This document shows, piece after piece, positions 3 to 24,946 of a stretch of DNA of 33,156 nucleotides (its first letter is position 1; every line of letters starts with the position of its first letter). The DNA comes from Oscillospiraceae bacterium (GTDB lineage: Bacteria > Bacillota > Clostridia > Oscillospirales > CAG-272), in contig SVRH01000008.1 of the NCBI GenBank assembly GCA_015064925.1, positions 1-33,156 on the forward strand, in the 5' to 3' direction. The notes beneath the pieces were generated by a model. That model was not told the origin of the DNA, ran no database searches, and saw nothing but the letters and a program-made list of their open reading frames with translations. The position numbers were made by a program, and so were the translations under genes.

Positions 3-1802
3 GATCTCATCCGTGCCGCCTTCGGTGTGGACTACGGCATCGTGGAAACGCTGGCACACTACCGCGCCGCCAAGCATTTTAATCCAAAGGTCAATTTCAT
101 TTTGGACATCGGCGGTCAGGACATCAAGTGCTTCCGCATCAAGAACGGCGCCATCGACAGCATCCTTCTCAACGAAGCCTGCTCCTCGGGCTGTGGCTCC
201 TTTATTGAAACCTTTGCCCGTAGCATGGGATATCCCATTGCCGAGTTTGCTTCCCTTGGCCTTTTTGCAAAGGCTCCCGTGGATCTGGGAAGCCGCTGTA
301 CCGTCTTCATGAATTCCAGCGTCAAGCAGGCGCAAAAGGACGGAGCGGACGTGGGAGACATCTCAGCCGGTCTTTCCATCAGTGTTGTCAAAAACGCGCT
401 TTACAAGGTCATCCGCGCCACCTCTGCCGACGAGCTGGGCGACAACGTGGTGGTACAGGGCGGTACCTTCTACAACAACGCCATTCTGTGCAGCTTTGAG
501 CTGGAGCTTGGCAAGGAGGTTGTACGTCCCTCCATTGCGGGACTCATGGGCGCCTTCGGCGCGGCACTGTACGCCAGACGCAAAGCGGAAAAGCACCCTG
601 AACGCAGTTCTGCCCTCATCACATCTGATGCTCTGGAACGCTTCGTGCACACCTCCCGTACCGCGGTTTGCAACGGCTGCGGAAACCATTGCAGCCTGAC
701 CGTCAATCAATTCGAGGGCGGCAAGCGCTTCATCTCGGGCAACCGATGTGAAAAGGGGCTAGGCGTAAAGGTCGACGAAAAGCTTCCCAATCTGTACGAA
801 TACAAAACAAATCACCTCACCTCACTCATGGAGGATCAGGGGCAGCCCATCCGCGGCACCATTGGTCTGCCTTTGGGGCTTGGCATGTACGAGCTGGCGC
901 CCTTCTGGCACGGTATCTTCCGCGCCCTCGGCTTCCGCGTGATCCTATCAAAGCTCTCTGATCGCGCTCTCTACGAAAAAGGGCAGTTCTCCATTCCCTC
1001 CGACACTGCATGCTATCCCGCCAAGCTCATGCACGGCCACATCGAATGGCTGTTGGAGCAAAAGCCGGATGCCATCTTCTCGCCCTGTCTGACCTATAAC
1101 GTCAACGAATACGCGGGCGAAAACCACTACAATTGCCCTGTAGTTGCCTATTATCCCGAGGTGCTGCGTGGCAACATGGAGGGTCTTGCAAGCACCACCT
1201 TCCTCTATCCCTACCTCAATATCAACGATGAAAAGGTTCTCGCCAAGAGCCTTAGTGAAGCACTCAGTCCGATTTTTGGCAAGATCCCTCTGTCCGAGAT
1301 GCGCAGAGCTGTAAAGCACGGCAGTGAGCAGTACGAAAACTATATGCTGAATTTGTCATATGAGGGAGCAACTGCTCTGCGTTATGCCAAGGAGCACGGT
1401 AAGCGTGTCATGATCTTAGCAGGCAGACCCTACCACACCGACCCCGAAATCTGTCACGGTATCGACCGTTTGGCTTCTTCGCTTGGATTTGTGGTGGTCA
1501 GCGAGGACAGCATCTTCGGGCTTTCTCAGCCCCGCAAGGTGGACGTGCTCAACCAGTGGACCTACCACTCCAGACTCTACCGCTGCGCGGAATTTGCCGC
1601 CACCCACAAGGGTGTAGAGCTGGTACAGCTGGTATCCTTCGGCTGCGGCCTGGACGCAGTCACCACCGACGAGGTGCGCTCCATTTTGGAACGCCGCGGG
1701 AAACTGTATACTCAGATCAAGATCGACGAGATCACAAACCTTGGAGCCGTCAAAATCAGACTGCGTAGCCTGATAGGCGCGTTGGATGAAAAAGAAGGTT
1801 AA
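3..1802 (+). CDS. 2-hydroxyacyl-CoA dehydratase activase-related protein (BcrAD/BadFG-type ATPase domain plus DUF2229-like region), 5' truncated by window edge
   Basis: Frame is open from base 3 (DLIRAAFGVDYGIVETLAHYRAAKHFNPKVNFILDIGGQDIK). ASKHA-type phosphate motif DIGGQDIK; EACSSGCGSFIETFA; Cys cluster CNGCGNHC; DUF2229-like GTIGLPLGLGMYELAPFW and SDTACYPAKLMHGH. Confidence 0.85.
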   Translation, partial: DLIRAAFGVDYGIVETLAHYRAAKHFNPKVNFILDIGGQDIKCFRIKNGAIDSILLNEACSSGCGSFIETFARSMGYPIAEFASLGLFAKAPVDLGSRCTVFMNSSVKQAQKDGADVGDISAGLSISVVKNALYKVIRATSADELGDNVVVQGGTFYNNAILCSFELELGKEVVRPSIAGLMGAFGAALYARRKAEKHPERSSALITSDALERFVHTSRTAVCNGCGNHCSLTVNQFEGGKRFISGNRCEKGLGVKVDEKLPNLYEYKTNHLTSLMEDQGQPIRGTIGLPLGLGMYELAPFWHGIFRALGFRVILSKLSDRALYEKGQFSIPSDTACYPAKLMHGHIEWLLEQKPDAIFSPCLTYNVNEYAGENHYNCPVVAYYPEVLRGNMEGLASTTFLYPYLNINDEKVLAKSLSEALSPIFGKIPLSEMRRAVKHGSEQYENYMLNLSYEGATALRYAKEHGKRVMILAGRPYHTDPEICHGIDRLASSLGFVVVSEDSIFGLSQPRKVDVLNQWTYHSRLYRCAEFAATHKGVELVQLVSFGCGLDAVTTDEVRSILERRGKLYTQIKIDEITNLGAVKIRLRSLIGALDEKEG

Positions 1803-1805
1803 GCT

Positions 1806-3128
1806 ATGAACACACCAAACGAACAAAAAACATATCCAATCTTTACCGAGGAGATGAAAAAGGATTACACGATCCTCGTGCCCACCATGCTCCCCGTTCA
1901 TATCAAGCTGCTTACCAAGATCATGAAGTCATACGGCTACAACGCCGTGATGCTGGAGCCATCCCTCGACCGTAAGATCCCCGACACCGGCATCAAATAC
2001 GTACATAACGACATTTGCTACCCTGCACTGCTGGTCATCGGTCAGTTTCTGGTGGCGCTGGAAAGCGGCGAATACGATCCGAACAAGGTGGCTCTGCTCA
2101 TTACCCAGACAGGTGGCGGCTGCCGTGCCTCCAACTACATCCATCTGCTGCGCAAGGCACTGGAGAAGGCGGGATACGGTCACGTGCCCGTGATCTCCTT
2201 CAACGTTTCGGGTCTGGAAAAGGATTCCGGCTTTCAGATCACCTTCCCCATTCTGCATCGCATGATGTATGCCGTACTGTACGGTGACCTGCTGATGTGT
2301 CTGAAGAATCAGTGTCTGCCCTACGAAAACAACAAGGGCGATACCGAGGCACTGGTGGAATACTGGACAAACCGTCTGGCAGAGGATATGGAAACCAAGC
2401 GCGTTTCCTACCGAAGGATCAAGAGCATCTACACCGAGATCGTCAAGAGCTTTGCCGCCATTCCCATGACAAAGACCGAAAAGGTCAAGGTGGGCATTGT
2501 CGGAGAGATCTTTGTCAAGTATTCACCGCTTGGCAACAACAATCTAGAGCATTTTCTCCTAGGGGAAAACGCAGAGTGCATGGTCCCGGGGTTAACCGAC
2601 TTCTGTCTTTACACCATCTATGACAGCATCATGGACTATAAGCTCTACCGTCGCAATAAAAAATCGGTTTGGATCTATCGTATCGTTTACAGAATGTTTA
2701 TAAACAAGCAGCTGGATCTGATCAAGGCCATTACCGAAAACAGTGACTTTGCTCCCATGTCCTCCTTCAAGCACGCTCCCGACCTTACCGAAAACCTCAT
2801 CGGCAACGGTATGAAGATGGGCGAGGGATGGCTGCTGACCGCCGAAATGGTAGAGCTTTACAAGATGGGGGTCAAAAACATCGTCTGCACCCAGCCCTTC
2901 GGATGCCTTCCCAACCACATCGCGGGCAAAGGCATGATGAAGCCCCTGAAGGAAGCCTACCCCGATATCAATATCGTGGCGGTGGACTACGACCCGGGTG
3001 CCACCCAGATCAACCAGGAAAACCGCATCAAGCTGATGCTGGAAAACGCAAGAGACAGCCTGCGTCTTGAAAAAGAGGGCTCCCCTTCCGACGCCAAGGC
3101 TTCGCAGCGTGAGCTGACACCGGTATAG
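1806..3128 (+). CDS. 2-hydroxyacyl-CoA dehydratase/activase C-terminal-like protein
   Basis: Starts 3 nt after the previous stop. Motifs DICYPALLVIGQFL, TQTGGGCRASNYIHLLRKAL and CTQPFGCLPNHIAGKGMMK match the C-terminal part of the long fused activase-like proteins. Confidence 0.8.
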   Translation: MNTPNEQKTYPIFTEEMKKDYTILVPTMLPVHIKLLTKIMKSYGYNAVMLEPSLDRKIPDTGIKYVHNDICYPALLVIGQFLVALESGEYDPNKVALLITQTGGGCRASNYIHLLRKALEKAGYGHVPVISFNVSGLEKDSGFQITFPILHRMMYAVLYGDLLMCLKNQCLPYENNKGDTEALVEYWTNRLAEDMETKRVSYRRIKSIYTEIVKSFAAIPMTKTEKVKVGIVGEIFVKYSPLGNNNLEHFLLGENAECMVPGLTDFCLYTIYDSIMDYKLYRRNKKSVWIYRIVYRMFINKQLDLIKAITENSDFAPMSSFKHAPDLTENLIGNGMKMGEGWLLTAEMVELYKMGVKNIVCTQPFGCLPNHIAGKGMMKPLKEAYPDINIVAVDYDPGATQINQENRIKLMLENARDSLRLEKEGSPSDAKASQRELTPV

Positions 3129-20946: not shown

Positions 20947-21954
20947 TTACGATACCTTTTCTATATAGCTATGCAGTACATACCCTCGTTTCCCACCATA
21001 GTCAGCGTATACAAAATCTCCGCAGATGGCCATTGCCCACAAATGTGCCCCCTTCGGTATTCTTTGTATCACCTCGGATGCCGTGCTGGTCTCTTTTCGC
21101 AAGCTGATATATTCGTTGCAATCGGCATAGTACCACTCTTCTTTGATGGGTGTGAACGTATGCTCCACCGCATACGACGTGGTATCGGTAAAATGCCACC
21201 ATTCCCCGCTATACGGCCGAAAACCGTATTTTTTCATGATCTCTTCCAGCATGACCGCATTTTGCGCAGCCTCGGCACTGCAATCGCTGTAATCTCTGTC
21301 TGCCAGCTTTGAAAAATCATCAAAATCAGTGGGCATTGTCACTTCGTTGCCCAAAGCATCCACCAACGTAATATCTACCGTATTGCCGCGGCTGTGAGAG
21401 CTGAAGCCCTTGTTCGGATCGGAAACATAGGTTGGGTCGGGACAGATATCCCATAACTTCCACTGCGCCGAGGGTGGACGAAAGCCGTCCCACACCTTAA
21501 GATACAGTTCCTGTTCGGCAAGCTCTGCTTGCACCTGTATCAGTTTTTTAACCGTTCCGTACCGAAGCCACAACGTGTCGGAGACGTAGATCACCTTGCC
21601 GGTAAAATTATTTTCGGTGCCATATCGCAAATCCACCACCAGATCCGGAATATAATCTGACACCTTTACAAATGAATCCTCTGTGGGCTCCGGTTCGGGT
21701 TCCGGTTCCGGTTCGGGCTCAGGCTCGGGCTCAGGCTCAGGTTCGGGTTCCGGCTCAGGCTCGGGCTTCGGTTCGGGTTCAGGCTCGGGCTCAGGCTTAG
21801 GCACGGGGGTGGGTTTCGATTCCGGCTTGGTTACAGAAGCTTCATCCTTGTCCGTGCCACCGGGTTCGGAATGCTCTTCCGATGCAGCGCTGCACGAAAA
21901 CAGCACACAAACAATCATCAAAAGACAAATATAGCCGAGTATTCTTTTCATCAT
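20947..21954 (-). CDS. D-alanyl-D-alanine dipeptidase (VanX-like) lipoprotein with PE-repeat linker and C-terminal SH3-like domain
   Basis: Lipobox-like [48 protein letters not shown] and GEWWHFTDT are VanX zinc-peptidase motifs; C-terminal [27 protein letters not shown] is SH3-like. Start behind AGAAGG. Confidence 0.9.
21687..21804. repeat. Degenerate hexanucleotide (GGNTCN) tandem repeat encoding the Pro-Glu linker
   Basis: Runs of GGTTCG/GGTTCC/GGCTCA/GGCTCG on the + strand; reads as (PE)n on the minus-strand CDS. Confidence 0.9.
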
Positions 21955-22005: not shown

Positions 22006-22806
22006 TCACGGACGCAGACCCATGCCGCCTTCCAGCGTCAAGGTCTCGCCGTTCATATACTTGAAGTCGGGGGATGCCAGCTGCACACAAACCCTTCCGA
22101 TCTCGGTCTCGGCATCGCCGTAATGCCCTGCGGGAGGCATTTTTACGTTGGCGGCAAAGGCCTCGGGGAAGGCTTCCTTGAATCTCTCCAGTTGGGCAGT
22201 CCAAGCAAGGGGACAAATGACGTTTGTATTGATGCCGTCCTTTGCCCACTCGGTGGCAGCCACGCGGGAAAGGCCGCGAATGCCCTCCTTGGCAGCCGCA
22301 TAGGCGCACTGACCGTAATTGCCGAAAAGTCCTGCGCCCGAGGCAAAGTTGATGACGCTGCCCTTACTTTCCTTCAGATAGGGATAGCACGCCTTCATAT
22401 AGTAGAATGCAGCGTACACGCCCGAATACATCGCCAGATTGAACTGATCGGTGGTGTGGTCCTGAATGGTAACCCCGGAGGCGGATGCCTGCGCGTTGTT
22501 GATCAGCACGTCGATCCTGCCGAACGTTTCAATTGTTTTCGCCACTACCGCCTTGGCTGTGGCTTCGTTGTCCTTGCCTGCGGCAATATCCGCCGCCATA
22601 ATGAGCACCGTAATGCCGTACTGCTTTTCCAGCGCTTCCTTTGCCTTTTCCAGCTTTTCCATATTGCGTCCGGTGATCACCAGATTCGCACCCTCCTTGG
22701 CATATGCCGTAGCAATGCCGTAGCCGATGGAGCCGCATCTGCCGTCCGACAAAACGGAGTATCCCGCTCCCGTAATGATTGCTGTCTTACCTTTCAAAAA
22801 ACTCAC
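22006..22806 (-). CDS. Short-chain dehydrogenase/reductase (SDR)
   Basis: GTG start behind GAAGGTGG. Rossmann TGAGYSVLSDGRCGSIGYGIA, DVLINNAQAS, INFASGAG and catalytic YAAAK. Confidence 0.9.
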   Translation of the reverse strand: MSFLKGKTAIITGAGYSVLSDGRCGSIGYGIATAYAKEGANLVITGRNMEKLEKAKEALEKQYGITVLIMAADIAAGKDNEATAKAVVAKTIETFGRIDVLINNAQASASGVTIQDHTTDQFNLAMYSGVYAAFYYMKACYPYLKESKGSVINFASGAGLFGNYGQCAYAAAKEGIRGLSRVAATEWAKDGINTNVICPLAWTAQLERFKEAFPEAFAANVKMPPAGHYGDAETEIGRVCVQLASPDFKYMNGETLTLEGGMGLRP

Positions 22807-22888: not shown

Positions 22889-22917
22889 AAAAAAAGCACT
22901 TACAAAAGTGCTTTTTT
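22889..22917. terminator. Terminator of the 22980-23396 gene
   Basis: AAAAAAGCACTT-ACA-AAAGTGCTTTTTT. Confidence 0.8.
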
Positions 22918-22979
22918 CTGCCTTAAACGTGATAAAAGGTGTCTGAATAGAGGTAAAAACGAACAAAAGGTGTCCGCAC

Positions 22980-23396
22980 TTAATCGTATTTCTCGATAGT
23001 CCCTCCGTAATACGTTTCAAACAGTTTGACTACTTTCTTGTTTTTTGGAATACACGCTTTTTCCCATAAAGGAAATCTTGTTTTGAAATAAGCAATTTGG
23101 TACTCTCTCCACCAAGGTAGCACTCCGCTTTTTGAGTGATGATCTTCTACATACTTTAGTTTGCTCCAAGCGACTCTTTTTCTTATAAAACCAAATAGAT
23201 AATATACAGTAACTCCTTGCGTATTTATTACACAGCAAATAGGAAAAGCGATCGCGTACCCAAGAAACAAGAAGCAGCCAAGAACGATTATAGGGATGGA
23301 AACTACTTCATCTATAGTCCATACTCCCAAAGCGATTAATATAGAAAAAATGAGAAGAAAAAAGATACATCGATTGTTAATGACAAAATTTCTCAT
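22980..23396 (-). CDS. Small membrane protein with two N-terminal TM segments and a PH-like soluble tail (uncharacterised)
   Basis: 138 aa; hydrophobic N-terminus then GVTVYYLFGFIRKRVAWSKLKYVEDH; RBS AAAGGCGGTGA. Confidence 0.65.
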   Translation of the reverse strand: MRNFVINNRCIFFLLIFSILIALGVWTIDEVVSIPIIVLGCFLFLGYAIAFPICCVINTQGVTVYYLFGFIRKRVAWSKLKYVEDHHSKSGVLPWWREYQIAYFKTRFPLWEKACIPKNKKVVKLFETYYGGTIEKYD

Positions 23397-23419: not shown

Positions 23420-23448
23420 ATTATATCATAATTTAGATAGCTTTTCAA
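23420..23448 (-). promoter_or_regulatory. Promoter of the 22980-23396 gene, abutting the hairpin repeat
   Basis: Minus strand TTGAAA - 17 nt - TATAAT; the repeat starts at 23449. Confidence 0.7.
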
Positions 23449-23594
23449 GTGAAATATTCGGCTTACGCCGAATGTGAAATAATTCACTTCGTAAATTGTG
23501 AAATATTGCTCCTTTGTCGCAATGTGAAATGAAATTTGCTCACATTCGCGAAGCGAATATTTCACAGCGAAGCGATTTCACTTGCCTGCAAGTG
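23449..23594. repeat. Multi-hairpin GTGAAAT/ATTTCAC repeat, copy A
   Basis: GTGAAAT-ATTCGGCTTACGCCGAAT-GTGAAAT-AATTCACTTCGTAAATT-GTGAAAT-ATTGC..GCAAT-GTGAAAT...CACATTCGCGAAGCGAATATTTCAC-AGCGAAGCGATTTCAC-TTGCCTGCAA. Confidence 0.9.
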
Positions 23595-23653
23595 CTTTTT
23601 TCTGCCTTAAACGGGCAAAAAGGTCAAAAATCGAGGTAAAAGCGAAGAAAAGG

Positions 23654-24469
23654 TCAACTTTTTTCTGTGCAATATTGTTTTGCAAACTCTTTCACAACAG
23701 ATTTTATTGAAAAATCAATTCTACTATCACAAAAACGTTTGATATGCTCAGGAATCTCTTTGTAATAAGCTTCTGCAATACCGCCGGCTATGCACGCTTG
23801 TGTATCTGCATCACCGCCAAGAGAGATTGCATTTCTGATTGCGCTTTCATAATCTGTCGATTCTAAAAATGCAATAATAGCAGGTGGAACGCTATACGAT
23901 GTACGGCTGTCAAAGACGTGCGTTTCTTTTATGGAGGAAAGTGGCGTTGAGAGCTTGTATTTGAACGTTTTTTCCAAATACGCTTTAATTTGCTCTTTAT
24001 CCGCGCCGCTTCGTGCCAAAAAGATTGATGCAGCAACCGCTCTCGCTCCGACGATTGCCTCGCGGTGATTGTGGGTAGAAAGACAGCTTGCTTTCGCTTG
24101 CAAGAGAGTTTGTTCTAACGAATCATACGCATATCCGATTGGGATAACGCGCATAGAGGCACCGTTTGCATAACTGTGTTTGTTTCTTGCATACGGATCT
24201 TTCGCCCAAGCAACAAACATATTACCAAACCCTGCATATGGGTGATACGAATAATATTGACGGTATTGTGAGGCGTATTCTTTTGCGCGAGCGCGAAGAG
24301 CCCATTTGGAGATTTCGGTTGGATTATTGAGAATTGCCTTGCAGACTGCCGCGATCAATACGCTATCATCTGTAAAAAAGCTGTCTTTGTTAAATTCAAA
24401 ATTGTAATCCTTTGTACAATGAACCTCATAATACGAACCGATTATATCTCCGTATATTGCCCCAAACAT
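23654..24469 (-). CDS. ADP-ribosylglycohydrolase (DraG-like) family protein
   Basis: MFGAIYGDIIGSYYE; TDDSVLIAAV; GFGNMFVAWA; ISLGGDADTQACIAGGIAEAYY. Confidence 0.9.
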   Translation of the reverse strand: MFGAIYGDIIGSYYEVHCTKDYNFEFNKDSFFTDDSVLIAAVCKAILNNPTEISKWALRARAKEYASQYRQYYSYHPYAGFGNMFVAWAKDPYARNKHSYANGASMRVIPIGYAYDSLEQTLLQAKASCLSTHNHREAIVGARAVAASIFLARSGADKEQIKAYLEKTFKYKLSTPLSSIKETHVFDSRTSYSVPPAIIAFLESTDYESAIRNAISLGGDADTQACIAGGIAEAYYKEIPEHIKRFCDSRIDFSIKSVVKEFAKQYCTEKS

Positions 24470-24492: not shown

Positions 24493-24521
24493 ATTATACC
24501 ACACTTTTGTAAACAAATCAA
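24493..24521 (-). promoter_or_regulatory. Promoter of the 23654-24469 gene
   Basis: Minus strand TTGATT - 17 nt - TATAAT; then AACACAGAAAGGCGGTGAGGCA-ATG. Confidence 0.65.
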
Positions 24522-24569
24522 GGCGCAAGCCTTGTATATCATCCGCAACTTGTTGCGGTGAGTTTTTTA

Positions 24570-24740
24570 GTGAAATATTCGGCTTACGCCGAATATGAAA
24601 TAATTTCCTTGCGGAAATTGTGAAATATCTCCCTTTGGTCGATGTGAAATGAAATTTGCCCACATTCGCGTCAGCGAATATTTCACGTTTGCGGAGCAAA
24701 TATTTCACAGCGAAGCTATTTCACTTGCCCGTAAGGGCAA
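24570..24740. repeat. Multi-hairpin GTGAAAT/ATTTCAC repeat, copy B (one extra hairpin unit)
   Basis: Same module order as copy A plus an inserted GTTTGCGGAGCAAATATTTCAC unit; ends in TTGCCC-GTAA-GGGCAA. Confidence 0.9.
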
Positions 24741-24749
24741 ATTTCGTTG

Positions 24750-24781
24750 AAAAAAGCACTTGCTTTGGCAAGTGCTTTTTT
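24750..24781. terminator. Terminator downstream of the tRNA pair
   Basis: AAAAAAGCACTTGC-TTTG-GCAAGTGCTTTTTT. Confidence 0.85.
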
Positions 24782-24782
24782 C

Positions 24783-24867
24783 TGGTGGGGGATGGTGGAT
24801 TCGGACCACCGAAGTCAGTGACAACAGATTTACAGTCTGCCCCCTTTGGCCGCTCGGGAAATCCCCC
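24783..24867 (-). tRNA. tRNA-Tyr (GTA), CCA encoded
   Basis: GGGGGAT...CAGACTGTAAATCTG...long variable arm...GGTCCGAATCCACC ATCCCCCACCA; anticodon loop CTGTAAA. Confidence 0.95.
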
Positions 24868-24871
24868 ATTA

Positions 24872-24946
24872 TGGAGCTGGTGATCGGAGTCGAACCAACA
24901 ACCTGCTGATTACAAATCAGCTGCTCTGCCATTGAGCCACACCAGC
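24872..24946 (-). tRNA. tRNA-Thr (TGT), CCA encoded
   Basis: GCTGGTGTGGCTCAATGGCAGAGCAGCTGATTTGTAATCAGCAGGTTGTTGGTTCGACTCCGATCACCAGCTCCA; anticodon loop TTTGTAA. Confidence 0.95.

Follow-up and report, generated by a model that had tools for sequence, protein, structure and literature searches.

Two hairpin arrays follow a tRNA operon

The window, the whole 33,156-nucleotide stretch of Oscillospiraceae DNA analyzed here, contains a tRNA operon followed by two gene cassettes, with the tRNAs, arrays, promoters, cargo genes, and right ends all on the minus strand. The first gene of the locus is tRNA-Thr (tgt; 24872..24946), and tRNA-Tyr (gta; 24783..24867) lies directly 5' of cassette 1, both as assigned by ARAGORN and Rfam. 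The operon ends at an intrinsic terminator visible in the sequence (GAAAAAAGCACTTGC..GCAAGTGCTTTTTTC; 24749..24782), directly after which begins copy B, a complete hairpin-ladder array (24570..24748) delimited by Gut-1 matches and sequence and designated the left end (LE). It is followed by the cassette 1 promoter (24493..24521; -35 box TTGATT at 24516-24521, 17-nt spacer, -10 box TATAAT at 24493-24498) and by cargo gene 1 (23654..24469), which encodes a 271-aa ADP-ribosylglycohydrolase (Pfam PF03747, E=1.1e-28). The right end (RE) of this cassette (23601..23656), conserved at approximately 75-92% identity behind unrelated cargo of other genomes, contains two ACCTTTT motifs and then the 5' arm of a terminator. 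Cassette 2 starts with copy A, a shortened array (23449..23594) delimited in the same manner, and continues with a promoter (23420..23448) whose -35 box (TTGAAA, 23443-23448) touches the array and is separated by 17 nt from the -10 box (TATAAT, 23420-23425). Cargo gene 2 (22980..23396) encodes a 138-aa protein with no Pfam match; its RE (22920..22979) is 83% identical to that of cassette 1 and is also present in C120, G013, and G016. A terminator hairpin seen in the sequence (22890..22919) ends the row, ahead of a native SDR gene (22006-22806).

An earlier note on copy A had described small hairpins punctuated by GTGAAAT in the left half and by its complement ATTTCAC in the right half. Every hairpin that it named was found in the sequence. 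Copy A comprises ATTCGGC-TTAC-GCCGAAT (23456-23473), AATTCACTTCGTAAATT (23481-23497), ATTGC..GCAAT (23505-23523), ATTCGC-GAA-GCGAAT (23544-23558), AGCGAAGCG (23566-23574), and CTTGCCTGCAAG (23581-23592), with GTGAAAT at 23449, 23474, 23498, and 23524 and ATTTCAC at 23559 and 23575. Copies A and B together hold 12 of the 15 GTGAAAT/ATTTCAC words of the window. Folding gave z-scores of -6.65 as RNA and -8.14 as DNA, and none of 200 shuffles was equally stable; both strands exceed the shuffles by a wide margin.

Compared to copy B and most relatives, copy A is missing two pieces, the 3' half of the terminator ahead of the array and, in hairpin 1, the 5' arm. The junction of this truncation, GCACTTGC-AGGCAAGTGAAA, recurs in a genome of another genus (G013). 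An origin of copy A by local duplication of copy B is unlikely, since its array is slightly closer to a copy on contig C43 (89% identity) than to copy B (87%) and different genes lie downstream. A simple terminator was ruled out as well, as a separate terminator stands ahead of the array. Elsewhere in the window, a 6-bp unit (GGCTCA/GGTTCG type) recurs in coding sequence at positions 21674-21827, forming a repetitive linker in an M15 peptidase gene.

The full element contains two Gut-1 halves

By covariance model, copies A and B are members of the Rfam family Gut-1 (RF01706). Against a 50-bit criterion, copy A reaches 58.2 bits on the plus strand (23447-23535), and the tRNA-proximal half of copy B scores 66.6 bits on the minus strand (24675-24749). 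Both copies show a second, weaker match on the opposite strand, located at 23532-23600 in copy A (minus strand, below cut-off) and at 24568-24655, the cargo-proximal half, in copy B (plus strand). The matches lie on opposite strands because the full element consists of two Gut-1 halves placed head to head. Across the genome to which the window belongs, 16 of the 19 Gut-1 matches pair up as eight convergent pairs; Gut-1 therefore represents only half of the whole element. Matches of the copies to the Rfam families rnk leader and mir-4818 fell below cut-off and were dismissed as chance.

The anatomy of the element was drawn from approximately 100 copies in relatives. Read from the tRNA side, a terminator hairpin is followed by CAACGAAAT or a variant of it and by hairpin 1, after which hairpins 2, 3, and 4 are each preceded by a 7-nt word, W. 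The center consists of a repeat of the 3' arm of hairpin 1 and then the first word in reverse complement, while in the right half W follows each of hairpins 5 to 7 in reverse-complemented form. The window copies have GTGAAAT as W; elsewhere GTGAAGT, ATGATGT, ATGATAT, GCGATAT, TGAATTG, and others occur, and the copies of W inside one element vary in concert. A generic word-based detector recovered 54 elements from 60 related loci, whereas shuffled sequence yielded none.

The earlier note would have been contradicted by a genome with just these two copies; genome searches found many more, with two copies in the window and at least 11 loci in the same genome. Gut-1 copies were found in 38 of 59 relatives, with a maximum of 50 matches per genome; the relatives are draft MAGs, so absence from a genome is weak evidence. 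One relative (G011, L536-L549) carries about 12 near-identical half-ladders that are scattered in palindromic mosaics, none of them adjoining a tRNA gene.

The hairpin ladder is probably a DNA structure

The stems covary strongly; a lack of covariation would have counted against the earlier note. In a gapless stack of 28 equal-length hairpins, 95.4% of cells are paired and 75 of 196 show two-sided changes. The covariation score equals 0.995, compared with 0.196 after shuffling and no more than 0.20 in slid controls, and only 32-42% of cells pair in the slid structures. G-T pairs account for 5 of approximately 1,353 canonical cells (0.37%; other mismatches, 84), in contrast to a G-U share of 7.2% in the tRNA stems of the same loci. 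Selection on an RNA structure would keep wobble pairs, and their near-lack in the ladder thus speaks against RNA. In addition, 67% of the arrays have a terminator just 5' (2.3% in shuffles) and 27% a strong sigma-70 promoter immediately 3' (1.4% in shuffles), the -35 box usually lying 0-2 nt past the last word; promoter-like sites within arrays are almost nonexistent (0.8%). Given the scarcity of G-T pairs and the location, with a terminator ahead and a promoter behind, the hairpin ladder is most probably a structure of the DNA and no RNA gene.

Gut-1 was defined from metagenome DNA and rated 'certainly' RNA (Weinberg et al. 2010, PMC2864571). Its model and the element described here share three hairpins punctuated by GUGAAAU. 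However, the model covers one half, whereas the element comprises two halves that are free of wobble pairs and set in a terminator-to-promoter DNA context, and W varies. A small RNA acting in trans, or an RNA element transcribed by readthrough of the tRNA operon, would account for the scores above the Gut-1 gathering score and for the covarying stems, but it is highly improbable in view of the wobble deficit relative to real RNA stems of the same genomes, the terminator 5' and promoter 3' with no promoter within, the convergence of two Gut-1 halves on opposite strands, and the concerted variation of W across all copies of an element. The authors of Gut-1 discarded any motif with copies that overlapped by at least 30% with their reverse complement (PMC2864571), a filter that two abutting, non-overlapping halves would, we infer, escape. 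The reading of copy A as a folded-DNA recombination substrate or REP/MITE-like element, beyond a simple terminator, is well supported by copy number, covariation, defined ends, variable cargo, and tRNA linkage, while the structured RNA suggested alongside it lacks support despite the Gut-1 match.

Arrays border cassettes with unrelated cargo

Among the 109 arrays with sufficient flanking sequence, 53 have a tRNA gene at most 330 nt upstream, typically at a distance of 34-70 nt and with nearly all isotypes represented; some others stand behind tmRNA. The cassettes are laid out as array, promoter, unrelated cargo gene, and conserved right end. The RE spans approximately 60 nt with its two ACCTTTT motifs, lies just before the next terminator, and is approximately 75-93% identical after unrelated cargo genes (compared in G000, G001, G013, G016, G018, and one named MAG). 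The 46 cargo proteins belong to many unrelated families, nearly all occurring once, and include GNAT proteins, small kinases, ADP-ribosylglycohydrolase, DUF4279, DUF3885, nucleotidyltransferase, methyltransferase, and lipoproteins, together with numerous unknown proteins. For many arrays, no gene follows at a short distance.

The tRNA-Thr/Tyr locus illustrates how the cargo differs between genomes. In the window, it runs from copy B and the ADP-ribosylglycohydrolase to copy A, the 138-aa protein, and the SDR gene. G001, from the same genus, has kept the SDR gene (83% nucleotide identity) with a different, GNAT-like cassette ahead of it. The G013 locus opens with an ATGATGT array followed by genes for IVP (see below) and a lipoprotein and continues with two GTGAAAT arrays, the first ahead of a 193-aa and the second ahead of a 207-aa protein. 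DNA identity is confined to the tRNAs, arrays, right ends, and SDR gene and never extends into cargo, and several relatives have tRNA-Thr/Tyr without any element behind. At the level of sequence, cargo turns over at one and the same locus.

In the relatives, where synteny past the tRNA is mostly lost, a search for a cleanly empty site with matching flanks found none; in G019 the tRNA-Tyr terminator is of the same type and uninterrupted, but it leads into other DNA. Likewise, no target-site duplication was seen at the elements, with no clean empty site for comparison. Among these draft MAGs, no insertion or excision was caught directly, nor were two strains found that differ by a single cassette at a site that otherwise agrees. 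Two loci (L367 and L384; G003 and G014) carry tRNA-Tyr 3'-end fragments and terminators in tandem behind the intact tRNA gene.

Based on the anatomy, copy number, wobble-free covariation, position, and both ends, all read from sequence, the element probably forms the left end of mobile gene cassettes, a family linked to IVP, and would act as DNA. Rows of unrelated one-gene cassettes bordered by folded DNA also recall integron cassette arrays and their attC sites. A chromosomal integron with the ladder as attC would explain why unrelated small genes are arrayed with folded DNA, similar to a recombination site, at every boundary. However, none of the 59 genomes encodes an integron integrase (IntI, TIGR02249) above cut-off, which largely refutes this reading; moreover, the cassettes often have their own promoter, the site anatomy is different, and the arrays start at tRNA terminators instead of attI. 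An integron is therefore improbable in the extreme. No cassette recombinase was identified.

IVP genes accompany the arrays

IVP (S23) is a small protein that insertions in 23S rRNA brought to light 30 years ago. To our knowledge, it has no known catalytic activity, and its function has been unknown since the 1990s. The commonest gene behind the arrays encodes this four-helix-bundle protein (PF05635, 23S_rRNA_IVP). It is present in the fullest copies, while most copies carry other cargo or none; copies A and B have no IVP. In the same genome, IVP genes lie behind arrays at C77, with the same W, and at C113, with GTGAAG as W. In a structural model of moderate confidence, IVP is similar to the S23 structures 2rld and 2gsc. 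Residues R36, S37, S40, N44, E47, and Y73 of IVP are invariant. The DGR accessory protein Avd, also a four-helix bundle, shares the fold class and gave a weak Foldseek match (8ub8), but the S23 structures are the closest.

IVP is present in 31 of the 38 genomes with Gut-1 and in 4 of the 21 without (Fisher p=4e-6), and the counts of both correlate (Spearman rho 0.77; 59 genomes). Y1 transposase showed no association with Gut-1 in these 59 genomes (Fisher p=0.42). Between genomes, homology at IVP loci runs from the start of the array to the IVP stop codon. At 16 of 81 IVP genes, the end overlaps the next start codon by ATGA, with the ribosome-binding site inside the IVP gene, and the gene coupled in this manner varies among loci.

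W class changes 15 times on the IVP tree, compared with a minimum of 10 and a shuffled value of 37.8, and the tree intermixes families and genomes. This match between W and IVP clade, again at sequence level, is partly co-descent, since W and IVP are neighbors in one unit. In trans, after exclusion of one in-gene chance match, exact GTGAAAT arrays occur in 8 of the 9 genomes whose IVP is of the GTGAAAT type and in 13 of the other 50 (p=6e-4), or with p=0.02 when restricted to genomes with other IVPs. These statistics are limited to the GTGAAAT pattern because TGATGT gives chance matches; the reversed GTGAAAT control had 0 matches in all genomes. The test lends moderate, supportive but not decisive, weight to the correspondence between W and IVP. 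G004, G011, and G030 contain many GTGAAAT arrays, and a matching IVP was not found in them.

In REP sequences, a short word stands at the base of small hairpins, which are inverted relative to each other and present in many copies. The element shares these features with REP/REPIN and RAYT but differs in having 4+3 hairpins, a defined right end, cargo, and no Y1 association. Passive REP/MITE-like hairpins, moved by an unrelated transposase or by tRNA-targeted islands with IVP as a frequent passenger, would suit the multicopy hairpins, the half-arrays of G011, and the duplicated tRNA 3'-end fragments. We consider this unlikely, as Y1/RAYT transposases are not associated, the homology of the IVP unit starts at the array, W class tracks IVP clade, and heptamers stand alongside IVP in unrelated settings.

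Alternatively, the arrays could be operators, at which an IVP regulator binds W next to its own and cargo promoters, with no IVP-driven movement. The contact between arrays and the -35 box, the way W follows IVP type, and the promoters found also behind IVP-less arrays agree with such a role. It nevertheless seems quite unlikely given the many arrays without a close downstream gene, the preferred site behind tRNA/tmRNA terminators, the variable cargo at one locus, and the IVP units within 23S rRNA and RNase P RNA described below.

Some IVP genes outside the order lie beside heptamers

We analyzed 32 IVP genes from the rest of the phylum outside this order and from the plasmids, of other phyla, named below. 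A strong 7-nt period (lag-7) was observed upstream of 8 and downstream of 6 of the 32, compared with 2 of 389 control windows. On a Bernardetia plasmid, the IVP gene is accompanied by approximately 15 tandem copies of TTAGTGA, and on Dolichospermum plasmids by tandem AATTCGT and AATTTGG; Treponema and Euhalothece plasmid IVP genes also lie within tandem heptamers. A Nostoc plasmid (L502 865-1600) has AAGTCGC upstream of the IVP gene and approximately 40 copies of the complement GCGACTT/ACGACTT downstream, which may relate to the heptanucleotide repeats of cyanobacteria. Beggiatoa TAACTGA repeats have been described in print without mention of IVP, and our literature search found no paper tying IVP to heptamers or tRNA cassettes.

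Of these IVP genes, four are embedded in 23S rRNA and another two in RNase P RNA; heptamers stand immediately 5' of the gene. The former (L517, L521, L524, and L528; Bacillota) lie near the helix 45 sequence and have GAGGTTA-type heptamers just 5' of the IVP start codon. The latter, in two related Bacillota (L523 and L525, both 1229-2003, minus strand), lie with their heptamers inside a class A RNase P RNA gene of 775 nt, compared with a model length of 367. We know of no earlier report of IVP inside RNase P RNA.

In Coxiella, GACAGAT heptamers precede S23p in the 23S insertion, and insertions encoding S23p replace a tetraloop (PMC4990558). Such 23S insertions resemble the IVP-bearing cassettes in having a PF05635 gene after heptamers, which there are in tandem, and they occupy the loop of a hairpin within a stable-RNA gene. 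The heptamers here, in contrast, are split by hairpins, the site lies behind a tRNA/tmRNA terminator, and the cassettes carry extra cargo, most copies without IVP.

A candidate role for IVP in cassette movement

Most likely, the ladder would be the DNA end of a mobile cassette that IVP recognizes via W, which it may bind as hairpins or as a single strand. A complete cassette would contain, behind the ladder, a promoter, IVP, an often translationally coupled cargo gene, and the approximately 60-nt right end, and most copies would have lost IVP. Insertion would occur 3' of a hairpin, and cassettes would pile up head to tail behind tRNA/tmRNA terminators. The window copies are best read as IVP-less derivatives that carry the ADP-ribosylglycohydrolase and the 138-aa protein; such copies might be moved in trans by IVP or be relics.

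More tentatively, IVP could be the recognition, perhaps catalytic, factor of an unnamed and widespread class of mobile elements, whose ends would be 7-nt arrays matched to the IVP clade and which would insert at hairpins of stable-RNA genes and terminators; in gut Clostridia, this would amount to integrase-free cassette shuffling. If true, such a class would also explain 23S intervening sequences and part of the abundant bacterial heptanucleotide repeats, offering one explanation for these two puzzles and Gut-1. The cassette reading itself recasts a database 'RNA family' as DNA, gives S23/IVP a testable role, and points to cassette arrays in gut Clostridia that would use no known recombinase and target stable-RNA genes.

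A pattern scan of viral contigs yielded complete ladders at 2 of 120 loci, the other matches being mostly chance. Two human-gut records deposited as phage (L506 and L507) each contain a hairpin-ladder element and IVP, and in L507 the element is located behind a tRNA-Arg-like gene.
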